A stretch of DNA of 64,000 nucleotides, taken from assembly GCF_016807805.1 (NCBI RefSeq), contig NZ_CP063363.1, forward strand, positions 62,001 through 126,000. Reading direction: 5' to 3'. The DNA is from Xanthobacter dioxanivorans (GTDB lineage: Bacteria; Pseudomonadota; Alphaproteobacteria; Rhizobiales; Xanthobacteraceae). The position numbers and the translations under genes were made by a program. How positions within the stretch are numbered: position 1 is the stretch's first letter; each line of letters opens with the position of its first letter. Of the stretch, positions 14,074 through 43,414 are shown piece after piece. The notes under the pieces are model-generated. The model was not told where the DNA came from. It saw only the letters and a list, made by a program, of their open reading frames with translations, and searched no databases.

Positions 14074-14299
14074 GAACTGGCGTCGGGCATCGCTCGGCCG
14101 GGGGCATGACCAGGCCAAGCCCGGCCTGTCCCGATCCCCGCCACGCCTCGCGGCGCTCATGGGCGAGCGTGGAGAGCTGCCCGGCGTCTTCCTCGGTGAG
14201 CTGGCCGGCGCTGTAGCGCGTCCATACCTCCCGCATGATCTCATCAAGCGCGCTTGCGCGCGCGCAGCCGATCGCGGCCGCGATCTGCATCCTCAACAT
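14074..14299 (-). pseudogene. plasmid replication-type protein, N-terminal part (split by Tn3 element)
   Basis: Seventy-five codons starting at the ATG at 14299 (GGAAGGA eight nt upstream) encode MLRMQIAAAIGCARASALDE through AHERREAWRGSG to PPAERCPTPV. The frame then runs into the transposon end. The remainder of the gene is at 35752-36406. The joined protein would be about 291 residues with a winged-helix segment, resembling DNA-binding replication proteins of small alphaproteobacterial plasmids. The initiator role is my reading of family and context and is not proven. Broken, it should no longer drive independent replication. Confidence 0.65.
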
Positions 14300-14454
14300 G
14301 CCTGTCGTCCTTCCATTTGAAGGACATGACGGCGCGGACGGCAGGCACGGCTTTCCTGTTTCCGCAAGAATCAATCTTGCGGATTGGAGTGCTGTAGCGT
14401 AGATAAGGGGAGAGCTTTGGCCCCGTCTCTACGGTGTGTCTGACGGCCTACAAA

Positions 14455-14486
14455 AACGCTCGACCGTTGGCGCGGTCGGGCGTTTT
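14455..14486. terminator. strong bidirectional intrinsic terminator
   Basis: AACGCTCGACCG and CGGTCGGGCGTT form a 12-bp stem with one G-T pair around a 6-nt loop. TT follows on the plus strand and TTTTT on the minus strand. It sits directly below the ribbon-helix-helix gene (minus strand). Confidence 0.8.
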
Positions 14487-14490
14487 GCCG

Positions 14491-14700
14491 TTATGTCCCT
14501 TGCTTCGCTTCGATATAGAGCCTCAATGCTTCCTCGATGATCGGCGCGCGGCCAAGCACGCCCCGCTGCTCCTTGATCTTGTCGATTTGGGCGAGAAGAT
14601 CAGTCGGAACATACGTGGTCAGCGCGATACGGCCGGCCGCAAGCTGCCGCGCCCGATGGGCGGCAACGTCCTTCCGAATCCTTTCCGAGTCGCGCTTCAT
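14491..14700 (-). CDS. small ribbon-helix-helix (CopG-like) DNA-binding protein
   Basis: From the ATG at 14700 this encodes 69 residues. IALTTYVPTDLLAQIDKIKE gives the beta-strand plus first helix, and LGRAPIIEEALRLYIEAKQG gives the second helix of a ribbon-helix-helix fold. An in-frame TTG at 14736 would add 12 residues, but its AAGGGA lies too close; neither start has an ideal ribosome site. Such proteins usually act as plasmid copy-number, partition or antitoxin-type repressors. It lies between the broken replication gene and the resolvase, so a plasmid-maintenance regulator is likely. The terminator at 14455-14486 ends its transcript. Confidence 0.65.
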   Translation of the reverse strand: MKRDSERIRKDVAAHRARQLAAGRIALTTYVPTDLLAQIDKIKEQRGVLGRAPIIEEALRLYIEAKQGT

Positions 14701-14809
14701 TCTTAGCAGTAAGGACGAACTCGCCCGATTCTGCAATCCCTTGCGGAAGGAACCGCGAAAGGCACTACTTCTAGGGCCGGCAACTAAACGTGGTTACGTC
14801 AATGCGTAT

Positions 14810-15403
14810 TCACGTCAATGCGTTCTCAAGCGCCCGGTAGAGCGTGGCACGATGCACGCCCAAGAGCCGGGCGACTTCCGCCACCGGCTTCTTGTCGTCA
14901 TGGATAAGCTGGCGGGCATGGGCGATCTGCTCGGCCGACAGGGCAGGGGAGGGGCCGAACTTCACGCCTCGGGCTTTCGCCGCGATCCGGCCGGCGCTCG
15001 TGCGCTCCACGATCAAGCTGCGCTCGAAATCCGCGATGCCGGCGAACACGGTCAACACCATGCGCCCCGCCGGCGTCGTGGTATCGGCCCACGGCTCGGC
15101 CAGCGAACGCAGGCCAGCGCCGGCCTCCTTGATCCGCTCCGCGATCGCCAGAAGGTCGCCGGTCGATCGGGCGAGGCGGTCTAGCCTGGTGATCGTCACC
15201 ACGTCGCCGGCACGCAGATGGTCGAGCATCCGCGCCAGCTCGGGCCGATCCCGCTTCGCCCCGGAAGCCTTTTCCTCGAAGATGCGGACGCAGCCGGCCG
15301 CACCCAGGGCGGCCCGCTGCGCATCGAGGTCCTGGCCGCGAGTCGAAACGCGGGCATAGCCGATGAACACGCGGCCGGCGTCGGAATCTGGTCGGCTGCT
15401 CAC
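14810..15403 (-). CDS. serine recombinase, resolvase/invertase family
   Basis: About 197 residues from a GTG at 15403, chosen because GGGGGAAG lies just upstream; the longer frame from ATG 15460 has no ribosome site. The catalytic serine is in VFIGYARVSTRGQDLDAQRA, and the active-site arginines lie in GDVVTITRLDRLARSTGDLL. The C-terminus is a Hin-type helix-turn-helix (KKPVAEVARLLGVHRATLYRAL). It most likely resolves dimers of the captured plasmid. The nested inverted repeats just upstream (15414-15466) are a good candidate for its recombination or operator site. It is not part of the Tn3-family element. Confidence 0.88.
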   Translation of the reverse strand: MSSRPDSDAGRVFIGYARVSTRGQDLDAQRAALGAAGCVRIFEEKASGAKRDRPELARMLDHLRAGDVVTITRLDRLARSTGDLLAIAERIKEAGAGLRSLAEPWADTTTPAGRMVLTVFAGIADFERSLIVERTSAGRIAAKARGVKFGPSPALSAEQIAHARQLIHDDKKPVAEVARLLGVHRATLYRALENALT

Positions 15404-15413
15404 GGCTTCCCCC

Positions 15414-15466
15414 TGTCGCAAATCATGTCGCAAGTTTTCTACCACTTGCGACAAAGACATGCGACA
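15414..15466. promoter_or_regulatory. nested inverted repeats, candidate res site or operator of the resolvase
   Basis: A perfect 10-bp inverted repeat TGTCGCAAGT/ACTTGCGACA (15426-15435 and 15444-15453) is enclosed by a second pair TGTCGCA/TGCGACA (15414-15420 and 15460-15466), almost concentric. A further ACTTGCG-like copy lies near 15516. The position directly before the recombinase start suggests a recombination site, autoregulatory operator or both. Confidence 0.55.
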
Positions 15467-15560
15467 CGAAAAGCCCTGATTTTCCGGGGGCGGCCGATCT
15501 GTTGCAGGTTTTACAACTTGCGCGACAAGGCTATGAAGCGCCGGGATTGTATAGCGTAGC

Positions 15561-15587
15561 TTGACACTATACGTTTAGCTTGATAGT
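15561..15587 (+). promoter_or_regulatory. probable higBA promoter
   Basis: TTGACA (15561-15566) is followed after 15 bp by GATAGT (15582-15587), only 8 bp before the higB start. Repeated TAGCTTGA (two copies) and TATA-containing inverted motifs cover the region and may be the HigA operator. Confidence 0.45.
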
Positions 15588-15595
15588 GACGGCAC

Positions 15596-15886
15596 ATGAG
15601 AATCCGAAACGTGGTCCATAAGGGGTTGCGCCGCTTCATCGAAGATGATGACGCCACCGGCTTGCAGGCGGCCGTAGTGCCGAAAGTCCGTCGCATCGTC
15701 ACCTTCCTGCAAGATATGGAGCGGGAAGACGAGCTGCGCACGGTCCCGAGCTGGAAGGCTCATCAGCTCACCGGCGATCGAAAAGGCACCTGGAGCCTGT
15801 TCGTCACCAAGAACTGGCGGATCACGTTCCGGATCGACCAAACCGAAATCGAGATCATCGACCTCGACTATGAAGATTACCACTAG
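15596..15886 (+). CDS. higB: HigB/RelE-family toxin
   Basis: The 96-residue protein has the compact RelE/HigB fold pattern. HKGLRRFIEDDDATGL opens it, followed by RTVPSWKAHQLTGDRKGTWS and the core strand LFVTKNWRITFRIDQTEI, ending in EIIDLDYEDYH. Related toxins cleave mRNA on the ribosome. The toxin gene comes first and the antitoxin 9 bp downstream, the order typical of higBA rather than relBE. It belongs to the captured plasmid and would stabilise it by post-segregational killing. Confidence 0.9.
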   Translation: MRIRNVVHKGLRRFIEDDDATGLQAAVVPKVRRIVTFLQDMEREDELRTVPSWKAHQLTGDRKGTWSLFVTKNWRITFRIDQTEIEIIDLDYEDYH

Positions 15887-15895
15887 GAGGTGGCT

Positions 15896-16228
15896 ATGAG
15901 TGCGATGCAGGGCATCCGTATGAAAAACCCCGCCCACCCCGGCGGCTTCGTCAAAAGCGAGATCATCGAGCCTCTTGGCCTTTCGGTCACGAGCGCGGCG
16001 CAAGTTCTAGGTGTTACGAGGGCGGCATTGTCGGCCGTGCTGAACGAGCGCGCACATCTTTCGCCGGAAATGGCGCTCCGGGTCGAAAAGGCTTTCGGCG
16101 TGTCAATGGATACGCTCATGCGGATGCAGAACAGCTACGACATTGCCCAGGCCCGCAAGCGGGAAGGGGAGATCAACGTCGCACCCTTCAAGGGAAAGCC
16201 GCTCGATCCGCAAGCGGCGCTGATCTGA
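15896..16228 (+). CDS. higA: HigA-type antitoxin with Xre helix-turn-helix
   Basis: The start ATG at 15896 has AGGAGG five nt upstream; an in-frame GTG at 15890 overlaps that site and is rejected. The 110 residues include HPGGFVKSEIIEPLGLSVTS and AAQVLGVTRAALSAVLNERA, the typical HigA helix-turn-helix, then LSPEMALRVEKAFGVSMDTL. It should neutralise the toxin encoded just upstream and repress the shared promoter. The C-terminal extension (KREGEINVAPFKG) is longer than in the smallest members. Confidence 0.9.
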   Translation: MSAMQGIRMKNPAHPGGFVKSEIIEPLGLSVTSAAQVLGVTRAALSAVLNERAHLSPEMALRVEKAFGVSMDTLMRMQNSYDIAQARKREGEINVAPFKGKPLDPQAALI

Positions 16229-16282
16229 AACAAAGACAACTGGAATGGTGCCGCGTGCGGGACACGGGGCAGGGGGATTTGA

Positions 16283-18187
16283 ATGAAAAGCTTGCTGGAA
16301 CAACTTCCGTCTATCGTCGCAGAGGGCAAAAAAGAGGCTGAACGTGTGATGGAACGGGCCGAGAGCAATTATCGCCTCGGGTTACAGACGCGGGAGCTGG
16401 TGGTTCCGTCGAGGGACAGCAATTGGCAAGATATGTTTCGACAAAAGCCGCAATCGGCAGCTCCCGCCTCCGATCCAAATACACTGATTTATGGTGATAA
16501 CCTACTGGCAATGGCAGCTTTGCTAGCCGGCAGTGATAGTGCACAATCCCTGCGCAGCAAGGTTGATCTGATCTATATAGACCCGCCTTATGACAGCAAG
16601 GCGGACTATCGGACTAAAATCAGCCTGTCCGAATCTCAAATTGAACAGCGCCCAACAACTATTGAGCAGTTTGCATACTCTGACACATGGGTAGAGGGAA
16701 CAGCATCATATTTATCTATGCTTGTTCCCCGCCTTGTTTTGATGCGCGAACTTTTATCTGAAAGAGGATCAATATACGTCCACCTAGACTGGCACGTAAA
16801 TGGTTATGTTCGAGCAATTCTGGACGAGGTTTTTGGGAAGCAAAATTTTAGAAATGAAATTATATGGACATATTTTGGATTTAAGCGATCAACTACAAGA
16901 AAGTTCCCGCAAAAACACGACACAATATATTCCTATTTTAAGAATGAGGATTATTATTGGAAAACACAATACAAGCCGCATAGCGCAGAATACTTGAAAA
17001 GATTCAAACCGGACGAAACGGGACGGCTCTGCCGATCTGACGTTAACCCGACGGGCGGCGGCACCAGAAGAATATACCTCGATGAAGTTGAGGGCGATAT
17101 TATTGACTCGGTTTGGGATGACATTCCGCCAGTTAATCCGGTTGCGAAAGAGCGGGTGGATTATGCCACGCAGAAACCGGAGAAATTGGTAGAGCGGATC
17201 ATTGAATCGTCATGTCCTCCTGGCGGTTCGATTGCTGACTTTTTTGCAGGTTCTGGCACAACGGCTGCTGTGGCCGAACGGCTCGGCCGTCGCTGGATCG
17301 TGTCCGATCTCGGGAAGCCCGCGTGCATGATTACACGCAAGCGTCTGATCGACCAGGACGCCAAGCCGTTCCTCTACCAGCACATTGGCGACTACCAGGT
17401 TGAACAAATGCGCTCCACGATGGGAAGTCGGTTCCGCATCGGCGATCTGGCCGAAATCGTGCTCGGCCTCTATGGCGCGCTGCCGCTGCCCGTAGAGGAA
17501 AACCCGAACAAGAACATGGGCAGGCTTCAGGGGAGCAAAACGCTCGTCCTCGCGGACAGCCCCAACAAGATGACCGGCCTCGCCACGCTGCGCCGTGCAA
17601 TCGAAATCCGCGACAACCTCATGGGCGGGTGGGATAAGGTCGTTATCCTGGGATGGAATTTCTCACCTACGATCGGCCATGACATTGAGGCACTGGGGCA
17701 GGGGGACCGGCTGGAAGTGCTCGTGATCCCGCCCGATCTGCTCGACCGGCTGAAGAAGAAAGGCCACAAGCTCAAGGCCGACGAGGTGCGCTTTTCGTCG
17801 CTGCAATATCTCAAGCTGGGCGCGGTTTCCCGCAAACAGGACGGGGAGGGGGAAGCCTTGTCCGTAGAGATCGCCAATTATGTGTTGCTGTCTCCGGAGG
17901 CGTTGAATCTCGACGAAGCTAACCGCGAAAAACTGCAAAAGGTCATCAATTCCGATCCTTTGGCGCTGATCGAATATTGGAGCGTCGATCCTGACTATGA
18001 CGGCGAGGTGTTCCGCTCCGTCTGGCAGGACTATCGCGGAAACACCGAGAACGATGCCGACGCTTATCGTGTCATCACTACGGCACGGCTCACCGGCCTT
18101 TCTAAGAAAGATGGCCCCCGCCGCGTCTGCGTGCGCGTGGTTGATGTGTTCGGCTTCGAGGCCGAAGCAACTGTCGAGGTGGTATGA
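16283..18187 (+). CDS. mod: type III restriction-modification system methyltransferase (Mod)
   Basis: The 634-residue beta-class N6-adenine methyltransferase has the catalytic motif IV in [19 protein letters not shown] near residue 100 and the AdoMet motif I in [20 protein letters not shown] near residue 320. This order (IV before I) is normal for Mod. The target-recognition segment between them (about 16690-17180) is strikingly AT-rich compared with the rest. The stop overlaps the start of res (ATGA at 18184-18187), showing translational coupling. Mod alone modifies DNA. Because res is broken, it should now act as an orphan methyltransferase. Confidence 0.92.
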
Positions 18188-18767
18188 TGGCGAGCATCAA
18201 CGATCTTTCGCTTGCCAAGGGTTTGACGACCCAGGTCGAAGACGCCTGCGCCGGCTTGGAAAGCGGCGAAGCACCGATCCTAGATCATGTCTCGGAGATC
18301 ACGGCCGAACTGTTGAAATGGTGGTTCCAGACTGAATTTCAGGACGCCCGCACCTTCAATTTCCATCCCGGCCAGCGGCAAGCCCTGCTGAACGTGATCT
18401 ATGCCCATGAGGTTTTGGGCATTGCGTCCCTGCAAGACCTCTACCAAATCGCCGCCCCTGACGTGATGCTGACAAGCACGCGGGATTCCGAGATCATCCG
18501 CGCGCCGAAAAATGCCTATCCGAAATACTGCCTGAAAATGGCGACCGGAACGGGAAAGACCTGGGTTCTGCAAGCCCTCATGGTCTGGCAGATTCTCAAC
18601 GCGAACCGCGCGCCGGATAGCGACCGCTACACCAAAAACTTCCTCGTCGTTGCCCCCGGCCTCATCGTTTACGATCGGCTGCTTGACGCCTTCATGGGGA
18701 AGGAACGAGACGGCAAGCGCGATTTCACGATTTCTGACCTGTCGATATTCCAGGAACTGTTCATCCC
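18184..18767 (+). pseudogene. res: type III restriction enzyme Res, 5' part
   Basis: The frame encodes about 195 residues of the Res N-terminus: TEFQDARTFNFHPGQRQALL, then the Walker A motif KMATGTGKTWVLQALMVWQI near residue 125, LVVAPGLIVYDRLLDAF and DFTISDLSIFQELFIP. It is cut at the codons for FIP (18760-18768) by foreign DNA beginning with the IS1380-type element. The rest of the gene resumes with FIPDSYRDEVFRFVQGA at 23361. Without the downstream helicase motifs this fragment cannot be an active translocase. Confidence 0.88.
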
Positions 18768-20412
18768 ACATTCTCCAAGTAAGTCGCTGATTTCGCTGTC
18801 GTAATCGTGATATTTCGCATATAAATCATGGCGTTGACGGCTGCGAGGGGCGCGTTTCATGGATCACCTGGAGGGTGCGGGCTTGGCGCGGGGAGATCGG
18901 GTTGATTTCGACCGCCGTGTGCGTCTGGAGTTCCGTGGTGCGCAGATCAGTTCAGACGGTGGCCTGCTGGTGATGCGCGAGCTTGATGACGTGCTCGGCC
19001 TGTCCAATCTGGCGTCGGAGGCGCTGCGAGACAGCCGCACCGGGAAGAACACGCTCCATCGGCTTGACGGATTGTTCCGGCAATCGGTGTTCGGACGACT
19101 GGCCGGATACGAGGATGTGAACGATGCCGACCGCTTGGCCCTCGATCCCGTGATGCGTCAGGTCGTTGGCGGCAGGGCCGTCGAGGCGCAAGCTGCTTCG
19201 GCATCGCAGATGGGACGGTTCGAGACCGAGACGCTGGCTCTGGCCGCGAACCGGGCGGCGCTGGCCGATCTGAACGGCCAATGGATCGACCGGTTTCATG
19301 ACCGCAACGGGTTGAAATACATCGTGCTGGACATGGACAGCTCGGTCAGCCCCACCCACGGCGATCAGGAAGGTGCTGCCTGGAACGGGCATTTCGACTG
19401 CACCTGCTATCACCCCATCTTCTTGTTCAACCAGTTTGGCATGCTGGAGCGCTGCGCCCTGCGTAACGGCAATGTCCACAGCGCCGATGGCTGGCGGGAT
19501 GTCCTTGATCCCGTCATTGCCCGATATGCTGGCCGCGACCTTGGTGGACGCTTCTTCCGGGCCGACGCTGCCTACGCGATCCCCGCGATCTATATGCGGC
19601 TGGAAGAAGCCAGGTTCTTCTACGCCATCCGTCTGCCCGCCAACGCCGTCTTGCGCGAGAAGATCGCGCATCGGCTGACACGGCCCGTGGGACGGCCTTC
19701 GCTGACCAAGGTCAAACGGTTCTTCGAGGACTTCGAGTATCAGGCGGCGTCCTGGGACAAGCCGCGCCGCGTCATCGCCAAGATCGAATGGCATCCGGGC
19801 GAGCTGTTCCCCAAAGTCGGCTTCATCGTCACCAACCTGCCGATGGAGCCAGACTGGGTGGTGAGGTTCTACAACCAGCGCGGCACCGCAGAGCAGCACA
19901 TCAAGGAAGGCAAATATGCCTTTCGCTGGACGCGGCTGTCATGCCGGAAGTTCCGGCACAACGAGGTGCGGCTGCAACTGCACGCGCTGGCCTACAACCT
20001 GGCAACCTTCCTGCGCTGCATCGAACTGCCCGAGGCCATGGCGGACTGGTCGTTGACCAGCCTGCAACTCAAGCTGATCAAGATCGGCGCCCGCGTCGTC
20101 CGCCACGCCCGCGCCATTACCTTCCAGTTGGCCGAGGTCGCCGTCACCGGCCCGATGGTGCGGGCCGTCCTTGCCGCCATCCGCCGTCTTCGAACGCCTC
20201 CGTCATGCGCATGACCACGATCCATGCCCAAGCTGAACGAAAGCGGCAGGACAGGTCCGTCTGCCGCGCGGAAAAGCGGCTCTGCCGGGCCAGAATGCTG
20301 CGGGTTCGAGGCTTGATCCACCCGACTTCGGCCGTTTGCGCGACGACAGACACCGCTCGGGGCGAAAAACGCTTGCCCAGCGAGCAAAATCAGGCGATCT
20401 TGAAGTCAAGCG
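18768..20412 (+). mobile_element. IS1380-family insertion sequence (ends approximate)
   Basis: The core is the transposase at 18859-20214. Imperfect inverted similarity exists between AAGTAAGTCGCTGATTTCGC (starting 18777) and the complement of roughly 20385-20412 (AAGATCGCCTGATTTTGC), which would give an element of about 1.6 kb. No exact target duplication could be fixed, so the ends are estimates. It forms the left edge of the 4.6-kb foreign segment inside res. Confidence 0.55.
18859..20214 (+). CDS. IS1380-family transposase
   Basis: The 451-residue protein has the order of IS1380 DDE transposases: RLEFRGAQISSDGGLLVMRE near the start, the first catalytic aspartate in YIVLDMDSSVSPTHGDQEGA near residue 155, and RFFRADAAYAIPAIYMRLEE with the second near residue 235. 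YNQRGTAEQHIKEGKYAFRW holds the glutamate near residue 345, and the WTRLSCRKFRHNEVRLQLHALAYN type tail follows. Length is normal and the frame is intact. It probably brought, or recombined with, the dehydrogenase and lactonase genes that follow. Confidence 0.9.
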   Translation: MDHLEGAGLARGDRVDFDRRVRLEFRGAQISSDGGLLVMRELDDVLGLSNLASEALRDSRTGKNTLHRLDGLFRQSVFGRLAGYEDVNDADRLALDPVMRQVVGGRAVEAQAASASQMGRFETETLALAANRAALADLNGQWIDRFHDRNGLKYIVLDMDSSVSPTHGDQEGAAWNGHFDCTCYHPIFLFNQFGMLERCALRNGNVHSADGWRDVLDPVIARYAGRDLGGRFFRADAAYAIPAIYMRLEEARFFYAIRLPANAVLREKIAHRLTRPVGRPSLTKVKRFFEDFEYQAASWDKPRRVIAKIEWHPGELFPKVGFIVTNLPMEPDWVVRFYNQRGTAEQHIKEGKYAFRWTRLSCRKFRHNEVRLQLHALAYNLATFLRCIELPEAMADWSLTSLQLKLIKIGARVVRHARAITFQLAEVAVTGPMVRAVLAAIRRLRTPPSCA

Positions 20413-20455
20413 GCAGGCCACTTGGGGAATGTCGGTTAAGGGAGAGGAGCCCGCT

Positions 20456-21499
20456 ATGAAAGGTGCCGTCTATGATGCCAAGGGAGGCATTGAATGGAAA
20501 GAAGTGCCAAAACCCAAGATTGAAGATCCCACAGATGCCATAGTGCGCATCACCAAGACGACAGTGTGCGGAACCGACCTGCATATCCTCAGGGGAGACG
20601 TGCCCAGCGTAACCGAAGGCCGGGTGCTGGGCCATGAAGGCGTCGGCGTCGTCGAAGAAGTCGGCAGTTCGGTCACCCGCATAAAGCCGGGCGACCGGGT
20701 TGTGATCTCGGCCATCTCGTCCTGCGGCAGTTGCTATCAATGCAAGAAGGGCCTGGGGTGCCATTGCGAGGCGAAGGATGGCGGTTGGGTGCTGGGCAAT
20801 CTGTTGAACGGCACGCAGGCGCACTATACCCGCGTCCCACATGCCGATAACGGCTTGCACGTCATTCCCGACGGTGTCGATGAAGAGGCCGCGGTAATGC
20901 TGTCCGACATTCTGCCCACAGGCTTCGAGGTCGGCGTATTGGCTGGAAATGTGCAGCCAGGCAGCAATGTGGTGATTGTCGGTGCCGGACCTGTGGGTCT
21001 GGCGGCGCTGGTCACGGCGCAGTTCTATTCGCCCGCTTCGATCATCGTGATCGACACGGACGATCCACGACTTGAGGCGGCCGAACGCCTTGGGGCGACC
21101 CGCACGATCAACCCCTCGAAAGAAGACTATGCCGCCGTGGTCAAAGAACTGACGGACGGATATGGCGCCGATACGGTGATTGAATGCGTCGGTATCCCTG
21201 AAACCTTTGACATGTGCCAGAAACTGGTCGCGAAGGGCGGCAACATCGCCAATATCGGCGTGCATGGCACAGCGGTCGATCTACATCTGCAGGACCTGTG
21301 GAACGCGAACATCGTGATCTCCACGGGCTATGTCACCACCAATTCGACGCAGATGCTGATGAAGACCGTCGCCTCGGGCAAGATCCGTCCCGAGGAGTTC
21401 GTGACCCATCATTTTGCTCTGGACGATATTGAGGAGGCCTACCGCGTCTTTGGCGCAGCCGCCAAGAACAAGGCGCTAAAGCTGATCCTGTCGGCCTGA
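20456..21499 (+). CDS. zinc-dependent alcohol dehydrogenase (MDR superfamily)
   Basis: The ATG at 20456 follows GGAGAGGAG by six nt; an upstream in-frame start at 20336 lies in IS-flanking DNA and is rejected. The 347-residue enzyme has the catalytic zinc ligands in TTVCGTDLHILRG and LGHEGVGVVEEVG. The structural-zinc cysteines lie in CGSCYQCKKGLGCHCE and the NAD-binding motif in VIVGAGPVGLAALV. It oxidises an alcohol in the cytoplasm with NAD(P). The neighbour is an SMP-30-type lactonase, so the pair may oxidise a sugar-like alcohol to a lactone and open the ring, which is inference. A hairpin at 21506-21537 follows. Confidence 0.92.
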   Translation: MKGAVYDAKGGIEWKEVPKPKIEDPTDAIVRITKTTVCGTDLHILRGDVPSVTEGRVLGHEGVGVVEEVGSSVTRIKPGDRVVISAISSCGSCYQCKKGLGCHCEAKDGGWVLGNLLNGTQAHYTRVPHADNGLHVIPDGVDEEAAVMLSDILPTGFEVGVLAGNVQPGSNVVIVGAGPVGLAALVTAQFYSPASIIVIDTDDPRLEAAERLGATRTINPSKEDYAAVVKELTDGYGADTVIECVGIPETFDMCQKLVAKGGNIANIGVHGTAVDLHLQDLWNANIVISTGYVTTNSTQMLMKTVASGKIRPEEFVTHHFALDDIEEAYRVFGAAAKNKALKLILSA

Positions 21500-21505
21500 G
21501 CCGGA

Positions 21506-21537
21506 TGCCCGCCCTTCGCTCTGGTCTTGGGCGGGCA
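21506..21537 (+). terminator. hairpin after the alcohol dehydrogenase
   Basis: TGCCCGCCC and GGGCGGGCA form a perfect 9-bp stem just after the stop codon. An A-run rather than a T-run follows, so it may work as a terminator for the opposite strand or simply protect the transcript end. Confidence 0.45.
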
Positions 21538-21624
21538 AAACCACGTTAGCTGGACTGTGGGCGCATAGATCGCGTTGCCTTTTGGGATGCGGGAACAGTT
21601 GGTTGGTTCTGAGGGAGGAGCCTA

Positions 21625-22518: not shown

Positions 22519-22580
22519 CGGTTTGTTGCGTGAAGGAATGCGTGCCATTCTATTTTGCAGCTGCGCGATAATATATCCTT

Positions 22581-23278: not shown

Positions 23279-23360
23279 TCCGCATCCTTGGAGGAACGCT
23301 TATGAGTATGACAGAAAATCATTACCGCCTTGGGCAAAGCGTTTCAGCTCCGAATCCAAG

Positions 23361-25723: not shown

Positions 25724-25744
25724 ACTTCACGCCGGGGCAGCAAT

Positions 25745-29500: not shown

Positions 29501-30111
29501 TGGTCGATGCGAATATCTAGCCCGGCCATCGCAAGCCGCTCGTTGGCGATCCCCTCCCATCGCTGGCGAAGGTCGCGGAGCTGCATATCTGTCGTCGGCA
29601 GGTCGTGCGCCAACAGCCATTTGTTTTCGCGCTCAAGATAGGTCTTGTCGCCTAGCCCGTCCTCCGTCACCTGCCGCGTGGTCATAAGAATGTGGGCATG
29701 GTGATTGCGAACGTCGCTCGCCTCGTGCGGCGCATGAATGGCGAAGTCCACGGCCGCGCCGTAGCGGTCGGCCAGCTCCTGCGCCATCTCCCGCGCCGCC
29801 TCTAGCCGCTGCTCGGCCGATAGCTCATGCGGCAAGGCAATCTCGAACTCCCGCGCAACGCGGGCATCCTTGCGCTTCTCGGCAAACTCGGCGGCGTTCC
29901 ACAAGTCCGACCGATCCCGCGCCCAATCGGCTGAAACGCCTTCGGGCAAGACGATCTCGGCATGTTCAACGCCCTGCTTGCGGCTGAAATCATGCGTGAT
30001 CCCGTCGCGTTCGTTGGTCAGCTTCTCCCCGGCACGATAAGCCATTGAGGCGACGGCGCTACGGCCGCCCGCCCGCGAAACTGGCTTCATGCTCAAATGG
30101 TAGATCGCCAA
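26506..30111 (-). CDS. traA: MOBQ relaxase-helicase, TraA/MobA type
   Basis: I place the start at TTG 30111: GAGG lies seven nt upstream and the product then begins LAIYHLSMKPVSRAGGRSAV, the standard MobA/MobL N-terminus. The longer frame from 30183 would read through oriT. The 1,201-residue protein has the metal-binding histidines in SDVRNHHAHILMTTRQ near residue 130. A helicase region follows with Walker A VVGYAGAGKSTMLAAARE and Walker B DVFVIDEAGMVGSRQLARF. The C-terminal 400 residues are charged. It nicks oriT (30142-30200), unwinds the strand and pilots it to the TraG coupling protein. Confidence 0.9.
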   Translation of the reverse strand: MAIYHLSMKPVSRAGGRSAVASMAYRAGEKLTNERDGITHDFSRKQGVEHAEIVLPEGVSADWARDRSDLWNAAEFAEKRKDARVAREFEIALPHELSAEQRLEAAREMAQELADRYGAAVDFAIHAPHEASDVRNHHAHILMTTRQVTEDGLGDKTYLERENKWLLAHDLPTTDMQLRDLRQRWEGIANERLAMAGLDIRIDHRSHMERGLEIAPTEHMGVHATQMERRGLDVSRARLDEEAARRNAELIREKPEQVLTLITGEKSVFDRHDVARALHRYINDDPQEFQSAFAKVMASPALVELQPERADPATGEIELARYSTREMVEIESGMIESAQRMHGAHGHGVDRRHVERAIERQDAAIQRSAGDASARLSDEQRRAIEHITGPERIAAVVGYAGAGKSTMLAAAREAWEAEGYQVHGAALSGKAAEGLEESSGIQSRTLASWSRGWENDRGTIGRGDVFVIDEAGMVGSRQLARFVGEAEARGAKIVLVGDHEQLQAIGAGAPFRAITEEIGHAELSEIRRQRVDWQREASVDFATHRTAEGLAAYRDHGNISFAETGEDARGQIVRDYLADRDERPDGTRVAMAHRRADVRAINDAIRTELQDRGELAQGEDAGALTFQTNDGKREFAPGDRIVFLENNRDLGVKNGMLGTVEHVEEGRIIATLDGGRERSVSVPMGDYQAIDHGYATTIHKNQGATVDRSYVMASGTMDRHLTYVAMTRHRDGMQLYAAQDEFTNAGRLVEHGAAPFEHDPQKSGSYFVTLENDKGEQRTLWGVDLERAMKEAAPEIGEKIGLQHEGSTPVTLPDGTQTHRNAWKVQDAGELAYSQLERRLSRSGVKETTLDYTRDFAERRGIAEQMGIRSEIEIPAERAAGLRAERESTAGDHALDRRSSQKVGADLAQDLRADPREDLAGDRQQRRNPFEGLKLGRGAAAESREPDRAGEDGPQIDQNRPQQAEKQRRGMFAGLKLNARPAASQERSERPEREGSLRPAPAPDRLAERARGPSPLETAVDRYSRAYQSIDQHRREGLPVLDMQRQEMRDAGQQLDQVRGGMKDLMRSTLENDPATARAMTELSGRERVAHVIDGMKRENAALQDPNIRAERFVERWQELQGQRRELRGWQHDDARAKVESHMNGMTKSLERDPQVDSILRNRRQELGIGQELRREQTIARALQDEMTRGHRLSRGIGMER

Positions 30112-30141
30112 CCCGTTGCCTCGATCTAGTTTCCGCCTTTC

Positions 30142-30200
30142 CCGCCAGCCTCCAAGCTGGCGGCGCGCTGAGTTGCATAGCAACTCGTAAGTGCGCCCTT
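30142..30200. other. origin of transfer, RSF1010/MOBQ-like
   Basis: An inverted repeat GAGTTGC-ATA-GCAACTC (30170-30186) is followed at once by GTAAGTGCGCCCTT (30187-30200), which closely matches the nick region of RSF1010-type origins. A second inverted repeat, CCGCCAGC/GCTGGCGG, lies at 30142-30149 and 30156-30163. The site lies directly upstream of the MOBQ relaxase gene, as expected. Confidence 0.85.
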
Positions 30201-30378
30201 CTCAACTCAATCGCTACGCTATTTCGTCGCTCGGTGTGGCGCTTGCGGCAAGGTCGATGCGATGAACTGAGGCCCTGATTGTGCTGCAAAGCCGCCAAAA
30301 ATTCAAGGTAGCGCATAATCGTGTTTGGTGACGCTGCTTGCATCGGATAGACTTCGGCTCAAATGGGAGTGCAGACCG

Positions 30379-31155
30379 ATGGCAATAGACAGCGCCGGAA
30401 CACTTGCGTTGCTGATCGACGGCGATAATGCCACCCCGAAAATCATAACCGGGCTGCTGGCTGAGATCGCCAACTATGGCACCGCCAGCGTCAAGCGCAT
30501 CTATGGCGATTGGACCAAGCCGAACCTCAACGGCTGGAAAGAGTGCCTGCTGGAACACTCGATTCAGCCGGTCCAGCAATTCGCCTATACGACCGGGAAG
30601 AACGCAACGGACGGCGCGATGATTATCGACGCGATGGACTTGCTCTATACCGGCCGCTTCTCCGGTTTCTGCATCGTCTCAAGTGATAGCGACTTTGCCC
30701 GCCTGGCCGCGCGCATCCGTGAGCAAGGCGTCATCGTCTATGGGTTCGGGGAGCGCAAGACGCCCCGCCCCTTCATCACCGCTTGCGACAAGTTCGTCTA
30801 TTTCGACGTGCTCAACACGGCCGGGGAACAGAAGGAAGCGGAAGCCGTCACCGCGCCTAAAGCGGCCGCCGCCAAGCCTGCACCGGCGAAAGCGGCACTC
30901 GATCGCGCTGCCCTCGACATGCTGGCGAAAGCTGTCACCGCCTCGGCCGACGAAGACGGCCGCGCTAATCTGGCCCGCGTCGGCGCGCACCTGGCGAAAC
31001 AATCGCCGGATTTCGACGCCCGTAACTATGGCTTTCCCCGCCTCTCCGATCTGGTCGAGGCGTCGGGCATTGTCGAGGTCGAGCGCATTGGCGAAAATCC
31101 GAAAATTATCATGGTTCGCCTCAAGGGCGGGCCAACCCCTCGCCCCGCTAGATAG
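30379..31155 (+). CDS. NYN-domain nuclease with C-terminal OST-HTH/LOTUS-like domain
   Basis: The 258-residue protein begins at ATG 30379 (MAIDSAGTLALLIDGDNATP). The acidic residues of the PIN-like NYN active site are visible in LIDGDNA, GKNATDGAMIIDAMDLL and FCIVSSDSDFARLAARIREQ. After an Ala-Lys-Pro-rich linker (about residues 155-178) a second domain (PDFDARNYGFPRLSDLVEAS) has the look of an OST-HTH/LOTUS RNA-binding fold. Such proteins are predicted ribonucleases. It is encoded between oriT and traD-traG and may enter recipients early, or regulate transfer transcripts; that role is inference. Confidence 0.8.
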   Translation: MAIDSAGTLALLIDGDNATPKIITGLLAEIANYGTASVKRIYGDWTKPNLNGWKECLLEHSIQPVQQFAYTTGKNATDGAMIIDAMDLLYTGRFSGFCIVSSDSDFARLAARIREQGVIVYGFGERKTPRPFITACDKFVYFDVLNTAGEQKEAEAVTAPKAAAAKPAPAKAALDRAALDMLAKAVTASADEDGRANLARVGAHLAKQSPDFDARNYGFPRLSDLVEASGIVEVERIGENPKIIMVRLKGGPTPRPAR

Positions 31156-31169
31156 AAGGAAACGACACA

Positions 31170-31479
31170 TGGCGCGCAAGACGATCGAACAGCGGTTGGC
31201 CGAGCTGGATGCGCAGCGCGCCACGCTCAAGGCCCGGCTCGGCTCGGCAAACAGGAGCGCGCCAACGATACCCGCCGCAAGGTGCTGCTCGGCGCGCTCG
31301 TTCTGCATCGCCTCGAAAGCGGCAAGGATGAGGAATTTTCCCGACGCCTCCGCGAATGGCTCAAGCGCGAGCTGCCCGACTTCCTGACGCGCCCTGGCGA
31401 TAAGGAACTCTTTGCCGATCTGATCGCCAACGCGCCGGCCAGGGAGACAACAGACAGCGCCGGGGGGGCCGCCTCATGA
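31170..31479 (+). pseudogene. traD: TraD-type conjugal transfer protein, frameshifted
   Basis: The gene begins RKTIEQRLAELDAQRATLKA and, in another frame, continues RRKVLLGALVLHRLESGKDE and SRRLREWLKRELPDFLTRPG, together a normal small TraD of Ti-type transfer regions. The frames separate at a tandem CGGCT duplication (31235-31244, next to CGGCA). Removing one 5-bp unit restores a continuous frame reading ARLGKQERANDTRRK. The downstream frame overlaps the traG start by four bases. Unless frameshifting occurs, TraD is not made. Confidence 0.75.
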
Positions 31480-33140
31480 ATCAGGCGACGTTAGCCTGGG
31501 CCGCGTTCAAGAACATGATGCGGCAGGCTGCGCGTGATCCGCTATGGGCGTTCCTATCCCTGCTCGCCCTGCCCTTCCGCATCTGGAAACCGCTTCTCGG
31601 GCTTCTGTTCATCCTCATCATAACCCTGTTCGTGGTCGGCTTCGGCGGCCGGTTCTTCCTCGAACAAATGGGCTTCGGCCCCGGCTCGGTTCCCTTCATC
31701 GCGCTCGATCTCGTCACGCTGCTGGTGCTGGCCGCGATCACCTTCCGGCTCGTCACCAATCCGCTGATTATCCATTTCGGGGATATGGACGGCGAAACCC
31801 ACGGCTCGGCCCGCTTCGCCACCGACAAGGAAACCGCCGCCCTTGCCCGCGCCGATTCCGGCCTGCTGATCGGCCGCGACGGCAAAACGGGAAAGCTCCT
31901 GCGCTATGACGGCCCGGCCCACCTGCTGACGATGGCCCCGACGCGCACCGGCAAAGGGGTGGGAACCATCATCCCTAACCTGCTCACGGCCGACCGCTCC
32001 GTGATCTGCATCGACCCCAAGGGCGAAAATGCCAAGATCGCCGGCCACGCCCGCCAGACCTTCGGCCCGGTCCACGTCCTCGACCCCTTCGGCGTCACCG
32101 GCCAGCCCTCGGCCGCCTTCAATCCTCTCGACCAGCTCGACCCGGCCGGCCTCGATGTCGCGGAAGATGCAAGCACCTTGGCCGACGCCCTCGTGTTCGA
32201 TGAACCGGGCATGGCCGGCGAGGCGCATTGGAACGAGGAAGCCAAGGCGCTCATTGCCGGCCTGATCCTCCATATTGCCGCCAGCGAGCCGCGCGACAGG
32301 CGAAACCTCGCTACCCTGCGCGAAGCTCTCACCCTCGCCCCTGAAGCCTTCGCGGCGCTCCTGAAGGACATGCAGGCGTCAACGGCCGCCGGCGGCCTGA
32401 TCGCCCGCGCCGCAAACCGCCACCTCGGCAAATCCGACCGGGAAGCGGCCGGCGTCCTCTCGGCCGCGCAGCGCCATACCCATTTCCTCGACAGCCCCCG
32501 CATGGTCGCGGTCCTCGGCCGATCCGATTTCCGCTTTGCCAATCTCAAGCGCCGCAACGCCTCGGTGTTCCTCGTCCTGCCGCCCGATCGCCTCGCCACC
32601 TATTCCCGCTGGCTGCGTCTGCTCGTCGCGCAAAGCCTGACCGACATGGCGCGCGACCCCGCCAAGCCGGCCGTGCCGGTCCTCTACCTGCTGGATGAGT
32701 TCGCCGCCCTCGGCCACCTCGCCCCCGTCGAGCGCGCAATGGGCCTCATGGCCGGCTATGGCGTCCAGCTCTGGCCGATCCTGCAAGACGTTCACCAGCT
32801 CCGCGCCACCTACGGGCAACGCGCCGGAACCTTCCTGTCAAACGCCGGCGTCCTACAGGTGTTCGGTGTCAACGATCACGACAGCGCCCGCCTCGTCTCC
32901 GATCTGCTCGGGCAGGAAACCGTGGTGTTCCAGACCATGAGCCGGGCGCTCGATTCCGAAAAATCCGGCCTCTCCTATGGCGAGCAACACACGGCCCGGC
33001 CGCTGCTGACCCCCGATGAGGTCCGCAACCTGCCGCAGCATGTCGAATTGCTGTTCCTCGCCGGGCAACGGCCGATCGTCGCCGGCAAGCTCGCCTATTA
33101 CGCCGATGCAGAATTCCGGGGGCTGTTCGACCAAGCATAA
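31476..33140 (+). CDS. traG: type IV coupling protein TraG/VirD4 family
   Basis: The 554-residue protein has two N-terminal membrane helices (LFILIITLFVVGFGGRFFLE and IALDLVTLLVLAAITFRLVT), Walker A APTRTGKGVGTIIPNLLT near residue 150 and Walker B PVLYLLDEFAALGHLAPVER near residue 405. This is the VirD4 pattern. It is an inner-membrane ATPase that hands the relaxase-DNA complex to a type IV secretion channel. No mating-pair formation genes are present in this segment, so the captured plasmid was mobilizable or relied on another channel, such as the trb genes expected after traI. Confidence 0.92.
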   Translation: MNQATLAWAAFKNMMRQAARDPLWAFLSLLALPFRIWKPLLGLLFILIITLFVVGFGGRFFLEQMGFGPGSVPFIALDLVTLLVLAAITFRLVTNPLIIHFGDMDGETHGSARFATDKETAALARADSGLLIGRDGKTGKLLRYDGPAHLLTMAPTRTGKGVGTIIPNLLTADRSVICIDPKGENAKIAGHARQTFGPVHVLDPFGVTGQPSAAFNPLDQLDPAGLDVAEDASTLADALVFDEPGMAGEAHWNEEAKALIAGLILHIAASEPRDRRNLATLREALTLAPEAFAALLKDMQASTAAGGLIARAANRHLGKSDREAAGVLSAAQRHTHFLDSPRMVAVLGRSDFRFANLKRRNASVFLVLPPDRLATYSRWLRLLVAQSLTDMARDPAKPAVPVLYLLDEFAALGHLAPVERAMGLMAGYGVQLWPILQDVHQLRATYGQRAGTFLSNAGVLQVFGVNDHDSARLVSDLLGQETVVFQTMSRALDSEKSGLSYGEQHTARPLLTPDEVRNLPQHVELLFLAGQRPIVAGKLAYYADAEFRGLFDQA

Positions 33141-33151
33141 AGGATGAAACC

Positions 33152-33541
33152 ATGACCGACACCGATGCGCCCGAATGGCCCGATCCCGCCGACAAGGCCC
33201 ATGCCGTTGAACAGGCCAAGCAGCTCCGTGACCAGGCCGCCAAGGGCGGCTTGCGGTTTGAAGCCTATCTGCCGCCGTCGCTGGCCCTGTGGCTGCTCGA
33301 TCTGATCGAACAGGACACGTTCCTTGATCCGTCCGAAGCCGTGTTCGTGATCCTGGGCGAGCATAAGGAGCTGGCACCCCATGCCGATCTGCGCCGGGAA
33401 CTACTCAAGCGCCGCATACAGGTGGCGGCCGATGATTCCCGACCGGGTATTTCGATGGAAGAAATGAAAGCCCTACTGCGCGAAAAGCGCGAAGCCCCCC
33501 TGCCCGAGCCGGCCAGATGGGAAAAGCGGTCCCGGCGCTGA
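33152..33541 (+). CDS. conserved small protein downstream of traG, unknown function
   Basis: The 129-residue protein starts 11 bp after traG, with AAAGGATGAAACC before the ATG, so it is part of that transcript. It is charged and helical. The stretch LRFEAYLPPSLALWLLDLIE, followed by DTFLDPSEAVFVILGEHKEL, resembles a ribbon-helix-helix-like or RHH-derived unit, and the C-terminus is basic (ARWEKRSRR). I do not recognise a named family. A transfer-associated accessory role is suggested only by position. Confidence 0.6.
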   Translation: MTDTDAPEWPDPADKAHAVEQAKQLRDQAAKGGLRFEAYLPPSLALWLLDLIEQDTFLDPSEAVFVILGEHKELAPHADLRRELLKRRIQVAADDSRPGISMEEMKALLREKREAPLPEPARWEKRSRR

Positions 33542-33664
33542 CGCACCGGGGCTTCTCTCTTGCGGCCCTCCGGTCACTTCGGCGCTATGTGGGAGCGCGT
33601 TCCCTCCGGGCCGGGGCCGGCTGCTCGCCGGCATCGCTCAACCAGGCCACACCCGCGACGCTAG

Positions 33665-33714
33665 CCCCCGGCCGTCCCGCTCTCATCATCTAGGGCCGTA
33701 GGGACGGCCGGGGG
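33665..33714. repeat. 14-bp perfect inverted repeat
   Basis: CCCCCGGCCGTCCC (33665-33678) and GGGACGGCCGGGGG (33701-33714) flank a 22-nt spacer in the gap between the traG operon and the convergent toxin-antitoxin operon. No T-run follows. It may be a transcript end shared by both operons or a folded single-strand signal used during plasmid transfer. Confidence 0.6.
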
Positions 33715-33767
33715 CGGGATGCAGGCAGACAACTTGCCAAATTGCTTGTTTGCCAACTTGCCAGCAA

Positions 33768-34085
33768 TCAGGCAATCGCCTCAAGGCCCCTTTTCTGAAT
33801 AACGGTCAGCAGCCGCAGCGCCGGGCCGCCGGGCTTCTTCACCCCACGTTCCCAATCTGACACCAGCCCCTTACTCACGTTGAGATAGCGGGCAAAGACA
33901 GGCTGCGAGATACGCTCACGCTCACGAATAGAACGGATTTCCTCGGGGGTCAGCGGCTCAACGGTTGTCAGACACCCCTCGTCAAATTCGCGCATCGTCT
34001 GCTTGTCGATCGCGCCGGACTCATAGAAGCCTTCCATCATCTCATGGACGGCCGCCAGAGCTTCACTCTTGTAAGTCTTGCTCAT
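33768..34085 (-). CDS. Xre-type antitoxin
   Basis: The 105-residue protein ends in a helix-turn-helix: EIRSIRERERISQPVFARYL followed by NVSKGLVSDWERGVKKPGGP. This is the HigA/NadS-type antitoxin arrangement in which the DNA-binding domain is C-terminal. Its start lies inside the end of the toxin gene (23-bp overlap), so the pair is translationally coupled with the toxin first. It should bind the toxin through its N-terminal part and repress the operon. Confidence 0.87.
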   Translation of the reverse strand: MSKTYKSEALAAVHEMMEGFYESGAIDKQTMREFDEGCLTTVEPLTPEEIRSIRERERISQPVFARYLNVSKGLVSDWERGVKKPGGPALRLLTVIQKRGLEAIA

Positions 34086-34452
34086 CGCAATTCACCTCGA
34101 ACATTCGACCCGCAGCAACTTCCGCGTCCATCTGCGCATCTGCAAACCCCAAGACCAGCTTTGCGGCCTTCTTCAAGTAGGCTTCTTCCGCATCATCAAG
34201 GTTCGCCATATCGCTCTTGGCAAACCCGAACGCGAAAACCGCCCTCGTCTCCGCGCGGAAGAAAACCAGCGTTCGGAAGCCGCCAGACTTTCCAGCGCCG
34301 GGCCGCGCTACTCGTTGCTTGATAAGGCCGGCCCCTAGATCGGCGTCGATCTGGCCGCGCTCAGCCCGCTCTACAGCCTCACAAAGCATCGCGTCAGAGA
34401 TTTTCTCCTTTCGGGCAAACTTGTGAAACCGGCTGTTTTTGAAAACCCTCAC
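34063..34452 (-). CDS. RelE/HigB-like toxin
   Basis: The start is taken as GTG 34452, because GAGGAAG lies just upstream; the ATG at 34482 would put that ribosome site inside the gene. The 129-residue product contains FHKFARKEKISDAMLCEAVE, LIKQRVARPGAGKSGGFRTL and FFRAETRAVFAFGFAKSDMA, the conserved pattern of a RelE-superfamily branch paired with Xre antitoxins. It is the second toxin-antitoxin pair on the captured plasmid after higBA. By family it should be an mRNA interferase. Confidence 0.87.
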   Translation of the reverse strand: MRVFKNSRFHKFARKEKISDAMLCEAVERAERGQIDADLGAGLIKQRVARPGAGKSGGFRTLVFFRAETRAVFAFGFAKSDMANLDDAEEAYLKKAAKLVLGFADAQMDAEVAAGRMFEVNCDEQDLQE

Positions 34453-34530
34453 GCGACTTCCTCGCCCCTGAATGTATGACACATAGCGTTACACTTCAAG
34501 GCCCTTACCGCATCGCCGCTTTGCTGGCAA

Positions 34531-34812
34531 TCAAGCACTATGTTTTGCCAGCAAGTCAGCAAGCGCCTCGCGCATGAGGTCTTCAATGGAGCGGTCGGTG
34601 TCGGCTGACAGCCGCTTAACACGGCGATGTTCCTCCGGCTCGACCACGACTGTCACCCGCTTCATTCCGGCCCGCGTGGCGGCATGGTAACGCTTACCCT
34701 CGGCACGATCCGGGGTCGGCGCGGGGGCGGATTCCGCGATAGGCGCAACAGGCGGCGTGGTCTGCGCGCCCACGGCCTTCATGCTCGCGGCTAAACTCGG
34801 TCTTTTCGACAT
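34531..34812 (-). CDS. ribbon-helix-helix centromere-binding protein partner of ParA
   Basis: The 93-residue protein has a flexible Pro/Ala-rich N-terminus and a C-terminal ribbon-helix-helix (GMKRVTVVVEPEEHRRVKRL followed by DRSIEDLMREALADLLAKHS). It is the second gene of a minus-strand pair with parA, 72 bp below it. This is the type Ib partition layout, in which a small ribbon-helix-helix protein replaces ParB. The TTGCTGGCAA motifs on both sides of the two genes are its likely binding sites. Confidence 0.8.
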   Translation of the reverse strand: MSKRPSLAASMKAVGAQTTPPVAPIAESAPAPTPDRAEGKRYHAATRAGMKRVTVVVEPEEHRRVKRLSADTDRSIEDLMREALADLLAKHSA

Positions 34813-34884
34813 GGTTTTATCCCATCAAACTGCCAGTTTGCCAGCAATACCATTATGCCTTATTGCTGGCAATACAGCTTGCCG

Positions 34885-35508
34885 TCAAATCAGCAATTGG
34901 CCTCTAAGCCAGGTCAGCAATTCGGACACTTCCTCGCTGGCTTTGCCGGCCGGCTCATACTCCGGAGCGGTTTTGCCGGCCGTGAGCGCATGTCCGAAAG
35001 CCGCCCGCTGCTGGAAGGCGACGGGGGCAACCTCCAAGCCGTGAACCTGAACGGCTTCCCGCGCATCGGCCAGAAGCTGCGTGGCACGCGGCGGCACGGC
35101 GTTCAAAACGACAAAGGCCGGCTTTTGGGCGAGTTTCACCAGCTCGGCCGTGCTTCCGATCGCGCGAAGATCGAGGATTCCGGCTCGGCACGGGATCAAC
35201 ACCATGTCGGACGATCGCGTTGCCGCCATTGCGGCCGCTTCCGAGTGCGGCGCGGTGTCGATCACGACCAGCTCGGCCCCGCCATCGGTCGCGGCCTGCA
35301 AGCCTTGCGGCAAACGAGTGTGAGGAAGCGCGACGACAACCGGGGCCTCACCTTGTCGGCTATCGCCCCATCCGGCGGCGCTTGCCTGGGGGTCAAGGTC
35401 GATGATAGCGGCGGGAAGCCCGGCCGCCTCGGCGGCCGTAGCAAGGTGCAAGGCGAGGGTGGTTTTTCCAGCCCCGCCTTTTTGGCTGACTATGGCGATT
35501 GTTTTCAT
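34885..35508 (-). CDS. parA: ParA-family partition ATPase
   Basis: The 207-residue protein begins TIAIVSQKGGAGKTTLALHL, the deviant Walker A motif with the signature lysine. It continues AAIIDLDPQASAAGWGDSRQ and LVVIDTAPHSEAAAMAATRS. The lack of an N-terminal DNA-binding domain and the short length place it in the type Ib group, fitting the ribbon-helix-helix gene downstream. It moves plasmid copies over the nucleoid. Identical 24-bp repeats lie upstream and downstream of it. Confidence 0.92.
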   Translation of the reverse strand: MKTIAIVSQKGGAGKTTLALHLATAAEAAGLPAAIIDLDPQASAAGWGDSRQGEAPVVVALPHTRLPQGLQAATDGGAELVVIDTAPHSEAAAMAATRSSDMVLIPCRAGILDLRAIGSTAELVKLAQKPAFVVLNAVPPRATQLLADAREAVQVHGLEVAPVAFQQRAAFGHALTAGKTAPEYEPAGKASEEVSELLTWLRGQLLI

Positions 35509-35683
35509 ATTGCTGGCATAGCAGCAAACCGCATTGACGGCAAGAATTTTTGCTTAAATGCCTTATTGCTGGCAATACAGCAAATATTAAGCCCCGCCCT
35601 TGCCCCTCGCTCCCTCTCGAAAGCCCGTAGGACGGTTGCCGCCGGCGCGAACGTGGCGGTTTTGCTGTGAGGGTGCCGCCTCC

Positions 35684-35706
35684 CGATCCGCCTTATACGC
35701 GGATCG
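35684..35706. terminator. 8-bp hairpin beyond the replication-type gene
   Basis: CGATCCGC and GCGGATCG surround a 7-nt loop, 46 bp past the stop of the minus-strand gene ending at 35752. No T-run is seen, so termination function is uncertain. Confidence 0.35.
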
Positions 35707-35751
35707 GAACCGCCGCAGGGCTGCGCAAGCAGCCCGAACAGCGGCGACCGC

Positions 35752-36406
35752 TTATGTTTGCCCTCTTAGATAAAGATCAGATGGGGATTCAGTCTGGTTA
35801 TCGGACTCACGTTTCATCACACTCTTTGCCAGCATCACGAGGGCCTTACCGAGCGGGCTATCGCCGGTGTCGAGCTGCGTCCGCTCATCGAGGGGCAGGG
35901 TGGTCTTGTAGGCGTCGATTGCCTCGCTCCATGCCTGCTGATCCTGTCCATGATCAGCAGGCGGGGGCGGGGCCTTGCCGAACCTGCCGAGAAACTGACG
36001 GGCCTTTTCCGGCAAGGACAGGCGATAGGCGTTGCTCGTCTGCTGGACCTGTGGGCCGCGCCCCTCGTTGCCGGTCGGCTCGTAGCGCCGCAGCCAGTCG
36101 ATGAAACCATGCGCCCGCAGGTTCTTCAGCGCCCGCACGATCGTATCGCGCGACCGGCCTAGCCGATCCATGATCGTGGTGATTGACGGCTCTAACCGGC
36201 CGGTGCGGAAGTCTATGAGATTGACGAACAGCCGCAGCACGTCGAGCGCCACCGATCCTAGCGGGCCGCTTCGCTCGCCCTTCTCGTGCAAGCCGGCCTC
36301 ATTGTAGATTTCGGCCGCCTTCAAGATTGCCTGAACGTCCTTGCGCGTCGTCGGCCGCCATATCCGGCCCTCCGATCGGCCCCGGATATGACTATGCCGG
36401 CGAACT
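35752..36406 (-). pseudogene. plasmid replication-type protein, C-terminal part (split by Tn3 element)
   Basis: From the target duplication leftwards the frame reads VRRHSHIRGRSEGRIWRPTT, then GPLGSVALDVLRLFVNLIDF and a winged helix (EPSITTIMDRLGRSRDTIVR, ALKNLRAHGFIDWLRRYEPT). It ends at 35752 after about 218 codons. Its N-terminal 75 codons are at 14074-14299, and both pieces share the valine codon inside GAACT in the same frame. The transposon end supplies an in-frame ATG at 36546 (METAAILLPRFSTG), so a hybrid protein could be made, but it would lack the natural N-terminus. Confidence 0.7.
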
Positions 36407-43412: not shown

Positions 43413-43414
43413 GC

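Follow-up and report, generated by a model that had tools for sequence, protein, structure and literature searches.

Capture of a small MOBQ plasmid between two identical copies of a Tn3-family insertion sequence on a repABC plasmid of Xanthobacter dioxanivorans

Replicative transposition of the Tn3 type fuses donor and target circles and leaves one copy of the element at each donor-target junction (PMC7157771), with an insertion staggered by 5 bp (PMC9579193). Insertion sequences of the Tn3 family that encode a transposase only have also been described (PMC3281130). Two free circular plasmids, pDC06 of Rhizorhabdus wittichii DC-6 (CP021187.1; 25,502 bp) and pDCA (KU922118; its description is cited in PMC11658234), represent a family of small MOBQ plasmids listed as rep_cluster_1420 in PLSDB. 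Here, we analyzed a stretch of 64,000 bp of X. dioxanivorans DNA (hereafter the window) that spans bases 62001 to 126000 of a 147,892-bp contig, C2, in a genome of 6.65 Mb. Within it, a 22,333-bp segment enclosed by two copies of a Tn3-family insertion sequence is a complete small plasmid of the pDC06/pDCA family, the replication-type gene of which, repA, lies split between the two ends of the segment.

The two copies of the element, located at positions 10848 to 14073 and 36407 to 39632 of the plus strand, are each 3226 bp long, lie in direct orientation and are identical base for base. The 5-mers at the four junctions read GTATA, copy 1, GAACT, then the enclosed segment, GAACT, copy 2 and CACAT. 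The inner pentamers occupy positions 14074 to 14078 and 36402 to 36406, and by simple arithmetic agreement over 5 bp at any one position is expected by chance about once in 1024. The outer pentamers, GTATA at 10843 to 10847 and CACAT at 39633 to 39637, have no counterpart at the opposite side. The N-terminal part of repA (75 codons; 14074 to 14299, minus strand) abuts copy 1, and its C-terminal part (217 residues and the stop codon; 35752 to 36406, minus strand), which contains an HTH_36 domain, abuts copy 2. Joined, 221 nucleotides (14299 to 14079) and 655 nucleotides (36406 to 35752) make a gene of 876 nucleotides, which corresponds to 291 codons and a stop, and the codon at the junction reads valine in the frames of both parts (14299 down to 14075 and 36405 down to 35752). 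We observed that pDC06 bears an unbroken repA of exactly this length (876 nucleotides, 291 residues), annotated as replication protein A. The N-terminal part differs from pDC06 RepA at one of 75 residues, and the C-terminal part is free of differences over the last 218 positions, stop included.

Furthermore, the ends of the segment close on each other in circular relatives. Window positions 14073 to 18106 align to 9958 to 13991 of pDC06, and positions 26529 to 36408 align to 91 to 9965, such that the two ends overlap on pDC06 by exactly GAACT; the single additional base by which each alignment extends is a chance match. Eight relatives were included in this comparison, three of which (L036, L038 and L077) were skipped as matches on the other strand. 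The remaining five intact relatives, pDC06, pDCA, a Roseomonas plasmid and the contigs G011:C15 and G219:C6, carry a single GAACT with the same neighbours, and in all five it lies within a replication-type gene that is unbroken. By alignment, the segment ends abut in the same way in L036 and L077, and the alignment to L038 ends 23 bases short on one side. The enclosed DNA is of circular origin, and this circle closes on the duplicated 5 bp, as the target of a cointegrate does. The likeness to the free forms extends over 99.7 to 100% identity with pDC06 and 95.9 to 99.9% with pDCA for the parts shared with the window. Both plasmids keep the whole 291-residue gene; they differ from the segment in having repA without an insertion and in carrying a different cargo, which includes haloacid dehalogenase. 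Homologous repA, TraA relaxase, coupling protein, ParA and recombinase genes follow one another in the same order, indicating that the segment belongs to this family. More broadly, matches to window positions 33700 to 36406 were listed for 70 of 391 genomes; six were substantial, four of them full-length (including this genome) and two partial, and the rest were short and left aside.

An earlier note, made from these letters without database searches, had proposed that a whole mobilizable plasmid was captured between two Tn3-family copies of the same size, with its replication-type gene split to opposite ends. It drew on the GAACT after copy 1 and before copy 2, the valine read in phase across the junction by both minus-strand frames, the fused gene of 291 codons and the unlike outer flanks GTATA and CACAT. 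All of these observations hold, and the outcomes that it had named as refuting were not seen: intact homologues spanning the junction in one frame exist, as do colinear circular plasmids, in pDC06 and its relatives.

The product of the split gene is most plausibly the replication initiator of the small plasmid, as suggested by its annotation in pDC06, by elimination and by a homologue in a plasmid shown to replicate. The 11.8-kb Roseomonas plasmid has 11 annotated features, of which repA is the sole plausible replication gene. The Paracoccus plasmid pAMI2 encodes a homologue of RepA at 79.5%, and mini-derivatives of pAMI2 replicate in Alphaproteobacteria (PMC3925955; the accessible text does not name the replication gene). 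A search of solved structures with intact pDC06 RepA returned nothing useful (best E value of 0.88). When a second RepA was sought in this genome, the C-terminal part was found to occur once only.

We then consider the element itself. Its tnpA gene (11041 to 14016 in copy 1 and 36600 to 39575 in copy 2, plus strand) encodes a protein of 991 residues that matches the Tn3-type DDE transposase domain (Pfam DDE_Tnp_Tn3, E value of 1.3e-141) and NCBIfam transpos_Tn3 with a score of 949 bits against a cut-off of 500. Imperfect terminal inverted repeats, expected at about 38 bp, are present: 43 of the first 48 positions are alike, and identity amounts to 88% over 56 bp. All but 193 bp and 57 bp of the element is taken up by tnpA. 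No resolvase domain was found among its open reading frames of at least 90 residues; the six other than tnpA, overlapping frames of 111 to 247 residues that lie inside it, gave no Pfam match. Likewise, no res-like repeats were detected in the two end stretches of the element, which is a weak test for a res site. Judged by this gene content, the element is an insertion sequence of the Tn3 family and not a unit transposon with a resolution module. It shares with the transposase-only insertion sequences of this family, of which IS1071 is an example, a Tn3 DDE transposase, a length of about 3.2 kb and no resolvase gene found, and it was matched to no named ISfinder element in this analysis. No further full copy was found elsewhere in this genome. 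Of 72,556 plasmid records searched, which may omit those of the window's own genome, 76 matched the element, and the only one at 99% or more was plasmid pA of Ancylobacter polymorphus ZM13, itself the fused form. The closest other full copy, at 90.8%, resides on ZM13 pC.

In a Tn3-type cointegrate, only the 5 bp of the target are duplicated, and the donor copy keeps the flanks that it had before. If the small plasmid served as the target, equal inner flanks are therefore required, whereas no such demand falls on the outer ones, and this is the pattern observed: GAACT stands at both inner junctions and is single in the intact relatives. The same pattern bears on the idea that the two element copies acted as a composite transposon and moved the 22-kb segment as a unit into the large plasmid. 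While a segment flanked by two direct copies invites this explanation, it predicts equal outer and unrelated inner 5-mers, the reverse of what is seen, and it does not account for segment ends that meet exactly in circular relatives. We rejected it on these two grounds and regard it as highly improbable.

ZM13 pA (NZ_CP083240.1) was found to hold the same capture, with all four 81-bp junction strings verbatim. It matches window positions 2855 to 16998 at 100% and 16994 to 46050 at 99.9%; beyond 46050, only pieces of 80 to 92% match. It differs in the orientation of the left 14 kb (2855 to 16998), a block that has been inverted and has an ISPme1-like copy at either end. A DNA methyltransferase gene that is whole in the window is cut in ZM13 pA at window positions 16994 to 16998, its pieces overlapping by 5 bp, and the fusion probably predates the inversion. 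In ZM13 pA (L010, L011), positions 70012 to 108087 correspond to window positions 2855 to 20436. The fusion is common to genomes with different genus labels (G000, g1, and G226, g23). The recurrence of the four junction strings also speaks to a possible assembly artefact, in which the 3.2-kb repeat would have led a free plasmid bearing the element to be joined wrongly with a second replicon. Long exact repeats are indeed where assemblers fail, but a separate assembly with a different arrangement reproduced every junction, for which reason an artefact was rejected as hardly credible.

The outer flanks have different origins. On the left, a ParB-domain gene (8561 to 10699, minus strand) adjoins what in relatives is a DUF2958 gene, truncated here by copy 1; plasmids pYP1 and pMC4 continue beyond position 10846 into that gene. 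On the right, DUF6088 and AbiEii-type genes (39807 to 41661, plus strand) follow CACAT. There, contig G219:C4 is 98.7% identical from position 39632 to about 46017, lacks the element at the joint and, to the left of CACAT, extends into different DNA. This genome was searched for the missing continuation of each flank, and neither was found at comparable identity; the best partial matches reached 79% and 73 to 77%, whereas the sides that were kept match at about 93% and 98.7%. The donor copy therefore sits on an older deletion or rearrangement. An inversion as the cause of the mismatch is disfavored because the continuations should then be present in the genome at the expected identity. A deletion seems likelier, and loss of a partner replicon from the strain is possible.

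The genome G219, which has the same genus label as that of ZM13, holds both kinds of parent in unfused form. Its small plasmid, a 15,650-bp contig, has an unsplit repA joint and is 88 to 95% similar in pieces. Its large plasmid, a contig of 85,873 bp that includes a repC homologue, matches window positions 57004 to 63996 at 92% and 39632 to 46017 at 98.7%, with no element at the joint.

Taken together, these data make it probable that the fusion arose in one step, by cointegration of the resolvase-less element into repA of the small plasmid, from a donor copy whose flanks were already unequal. According to this model, the insertion sequence on the large repABC plasmid would have been the donor and would have transposed replicatively into repA, at about codon 75 of 291, of a co-resident small MOBQ plasmid. 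Replicative transposition would itself have fused the replicons, placing one copy of the element at each junction and doubling GAACT at the inner ends. With no resolvase, the cointegrate would stay unresolved, and with repA broken at the same moment, the small replicon would probably be silenced and the fusion copied by repABC. If the 3.2-kb repeats recombined and released a circle, that circle would still bear the element in repA and would be expected to disappear. The unequal flanks of the donor copy would predate the fusion, as the products of an earlier deletion or rearrangement.

A two-step route is possible, if less likely: the element would first have entered repA of the small plasmid, duplicating GAACT, and the resulting circle would then have recombined with a resident, identical copy that already had unequal flanks. 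This route produces exactly the observed letters, and 3226 bp of identity offers ample homology for it. It requires, however, a separate transposition and a small plasmid that persisted although its replication-type gene was broken, and no small plasmid carrying the element was found among the 72,556 plasmid records, from which those of this genome are possibly missing. The earlier note had favored homologous recombination over a simple cointegrate on account of the outer mismatch. That argument does not discriminate, given that transposition into the inner circle makes no prediction for the outer flanks; what stands of the note's interpretation is the capture of a whole circular plasmid, complete with relaxase and coupling protein, between the two copies, its replication-type gene split to opposite ends. 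We favor the single step over recombination because the small plasmid would probably have been incapacitated by an insertion into repA that preceded the fusion.

Several observations weigh against this preference. Homologous recombination yields the same letters, so that sequence alone cannot separate the two routes, and a small plasmid without functional repA could be sustained for a while by intact sister copies. In addition, the ZM13 pC copy (90.8%; L014, 3001 to 6227) is flanked by AAAAT and ATCTT, without a 5-bp duplication, and a copy in genome G007 (77 to 78%) also lacks one. Because these two more distant copies show none, the 5-bp rule for this element rests on one site; the ZM13 pC copy may also sit at a rearrangement.

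Other members of the small-plasmid family have been enclosed in larger replicons. In plasmid p.1 of Rhizobium sp. X9 (NZ_CP071313.1; 210,847 bp), a family plasmid is bounded by direct repeats that are 100% identical and no shorter than 3,899 bp, a lower bound as the repeats reach both ends of the retrieved stretch. CTATG stands at both inner joints (L077, 4771 and 24853), and the window has CTATG once at that place, inside traA. The two cases are alike in the enclosed plasmid family and in the 5-bp inner duplication; they differ in the element, which in X9 p.1 is a unit with phosphonate genes, and in the gene hit, since traA is cut there and repA is whole. X9 p.1 represents a second, separate fusion with a family plasmid as the target, and we count this same geometry, brought about by a different element, in support of one-step cointegration. 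Plasmid pSA3 of Novosphingobium resinovorum (NZ_CP017078.1; 354.9 kb) contains genes of a related family plasmid with repA cut; the cut differs in being made by IS6100 at about residue 88 (L076, 11236 to 12585), and three IS6100 copies are present. The N-terminal part of repA was not found in pSA3 by a search made without a positive control. This plasmid may be a third fusion of the family. A further one is possibly represented by the 126,556-bp contig G192:C5 (L064), where repA is unbroken at 9304 to 10287, with no difference from pDC06 over 291 residues and the stop. We also noted that repA in G192:C5 adjoins a Tn3-type element that is 76% similar.

The fusions that are separate and defined to the base are thus GAACT in repA (the window and ZM13 pA, one event) and CTATG in traA (X9 p.1), made by unrelated elements. 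On these cases, it is about as likely as not that the small MOBQ family repeatedly serves as the target circle when elements of larger plasmids transpose replicatively. We also considered whether the capture is kept because the passenger's replication gene is broken. This seems doubtful, as the idea is weakened by X9 p.1 and G192:C5, which keep repA whole. Among the best 60 of 149 RepA records, which include all 27 at 80% identity or more, 29 were listed at 78% or more. Of these, 25 lie on replicons no larger than 60 kb, and in every one at least 98% of the gene is retained, in one case as two pieces. Of the four on larger replicons, the gene is kept in two and not in the other two. These are small samples in which some records are clones.

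The captured plasmid has a gene content suited to mobilization. A MOBQ/TraA-type relaxase-helicase (26506 to 30183, minus strand; Pfam MobA_MobL, 2.7e-67; NCBIfam TraA_Ti, MobQ) and a VirD4/TraG-type coupling protein (31476 to 33140, plus strand; Pfam T4SS-DNA_transf, 7.5e-79) are predicted. PLSDB labels pDC06, pDCA and the Roseomonas plasmid as conjugative. The annotation of pDC06 lists 22 features, not one of which bears the name of a mating-pair channel gene, and for this reason we consider mobilizable the better term. The segment further encodes a serine recombinase of the resolvase type (14810 to 15460, minus strand; Pfam Resolvase, 2.1e-42), the N6/N4 DNA methyltransferase mentioned above (16283 to 18187, plus strand) and a ParA-type partition ATPase (34885 to 35508, minus strand). 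An ISPme1-like element of the IS1380 family (18765 to 20435, plus strand; transposase at 18859 to 20214) is followed by cargo comprising a zinc-dependent alcohol dehydrogenase and an SMP-30/lactonase-type gene (20456 to 22518, plus strand), the names and coordinates of which were transferred from the ZM13 annotation. At 23302 to 25784, a restriction-subunit-like gene is apparently frame-shifted relative to ZM13 and pDC06, the open reading frame at 23400 to 25784 ending beyond the stop of its relatives; this appears to reflect an insertion or deletion, either real or a sequencing error.

By its gene content, contig C2 is a repABC replicon that also carries one or more conjugation genes. Its repC, repB and repA genes occupy window positions 59411 to 63280 on the minus strand and presumably now replicate the fusion, and a TrbE/VirB-type ATPase gene is located at position 128499 of C2, just beyond the window. 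A palindrome of 22 bp (AACCTTGTCAGCTGACAAGGTT) occurs twice, at 60991 to 61021 between repC and repB and at 61277 to 61307 inside repB. We take this pair to be likely repABC partition sites by comparison with such sites elsewhere, although their consensus was itself not found in the window. Elsewhere on the large plasmid, inverted repeats of 49 nucleotides with 84% identity (46239 to 46287 and 51874 to 51922) surround a 5.7-kb block with a Mu-transposase-type gene, near which a direct repeat of 74% identity was detected (49494 to 49793 and 54079 to 54378). The repeats between 46239 and 54378 probably reflect related TniA/B/Q-type transposons lying side by side.

The mechanism discussed here is either the textbook cointegrate pathway or its recombination look-alike, and the event is of a known kind that involves no new system. 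This fusion was not named in the literature surveyed at the level of titles and abstract openings. Its interest lies in an unusually complete, base-exact record of replicon fusion, which documents the fused product together with close free relatives of the small plasmid and a relative of the large one that lacks the element. It also corrects an inference, as equal inner and unequal outer flanks do not argue against transposition. Finally, it shows how an element that lacks a resolvase could, in the very step that fuses two replicons, inactivate one of them.

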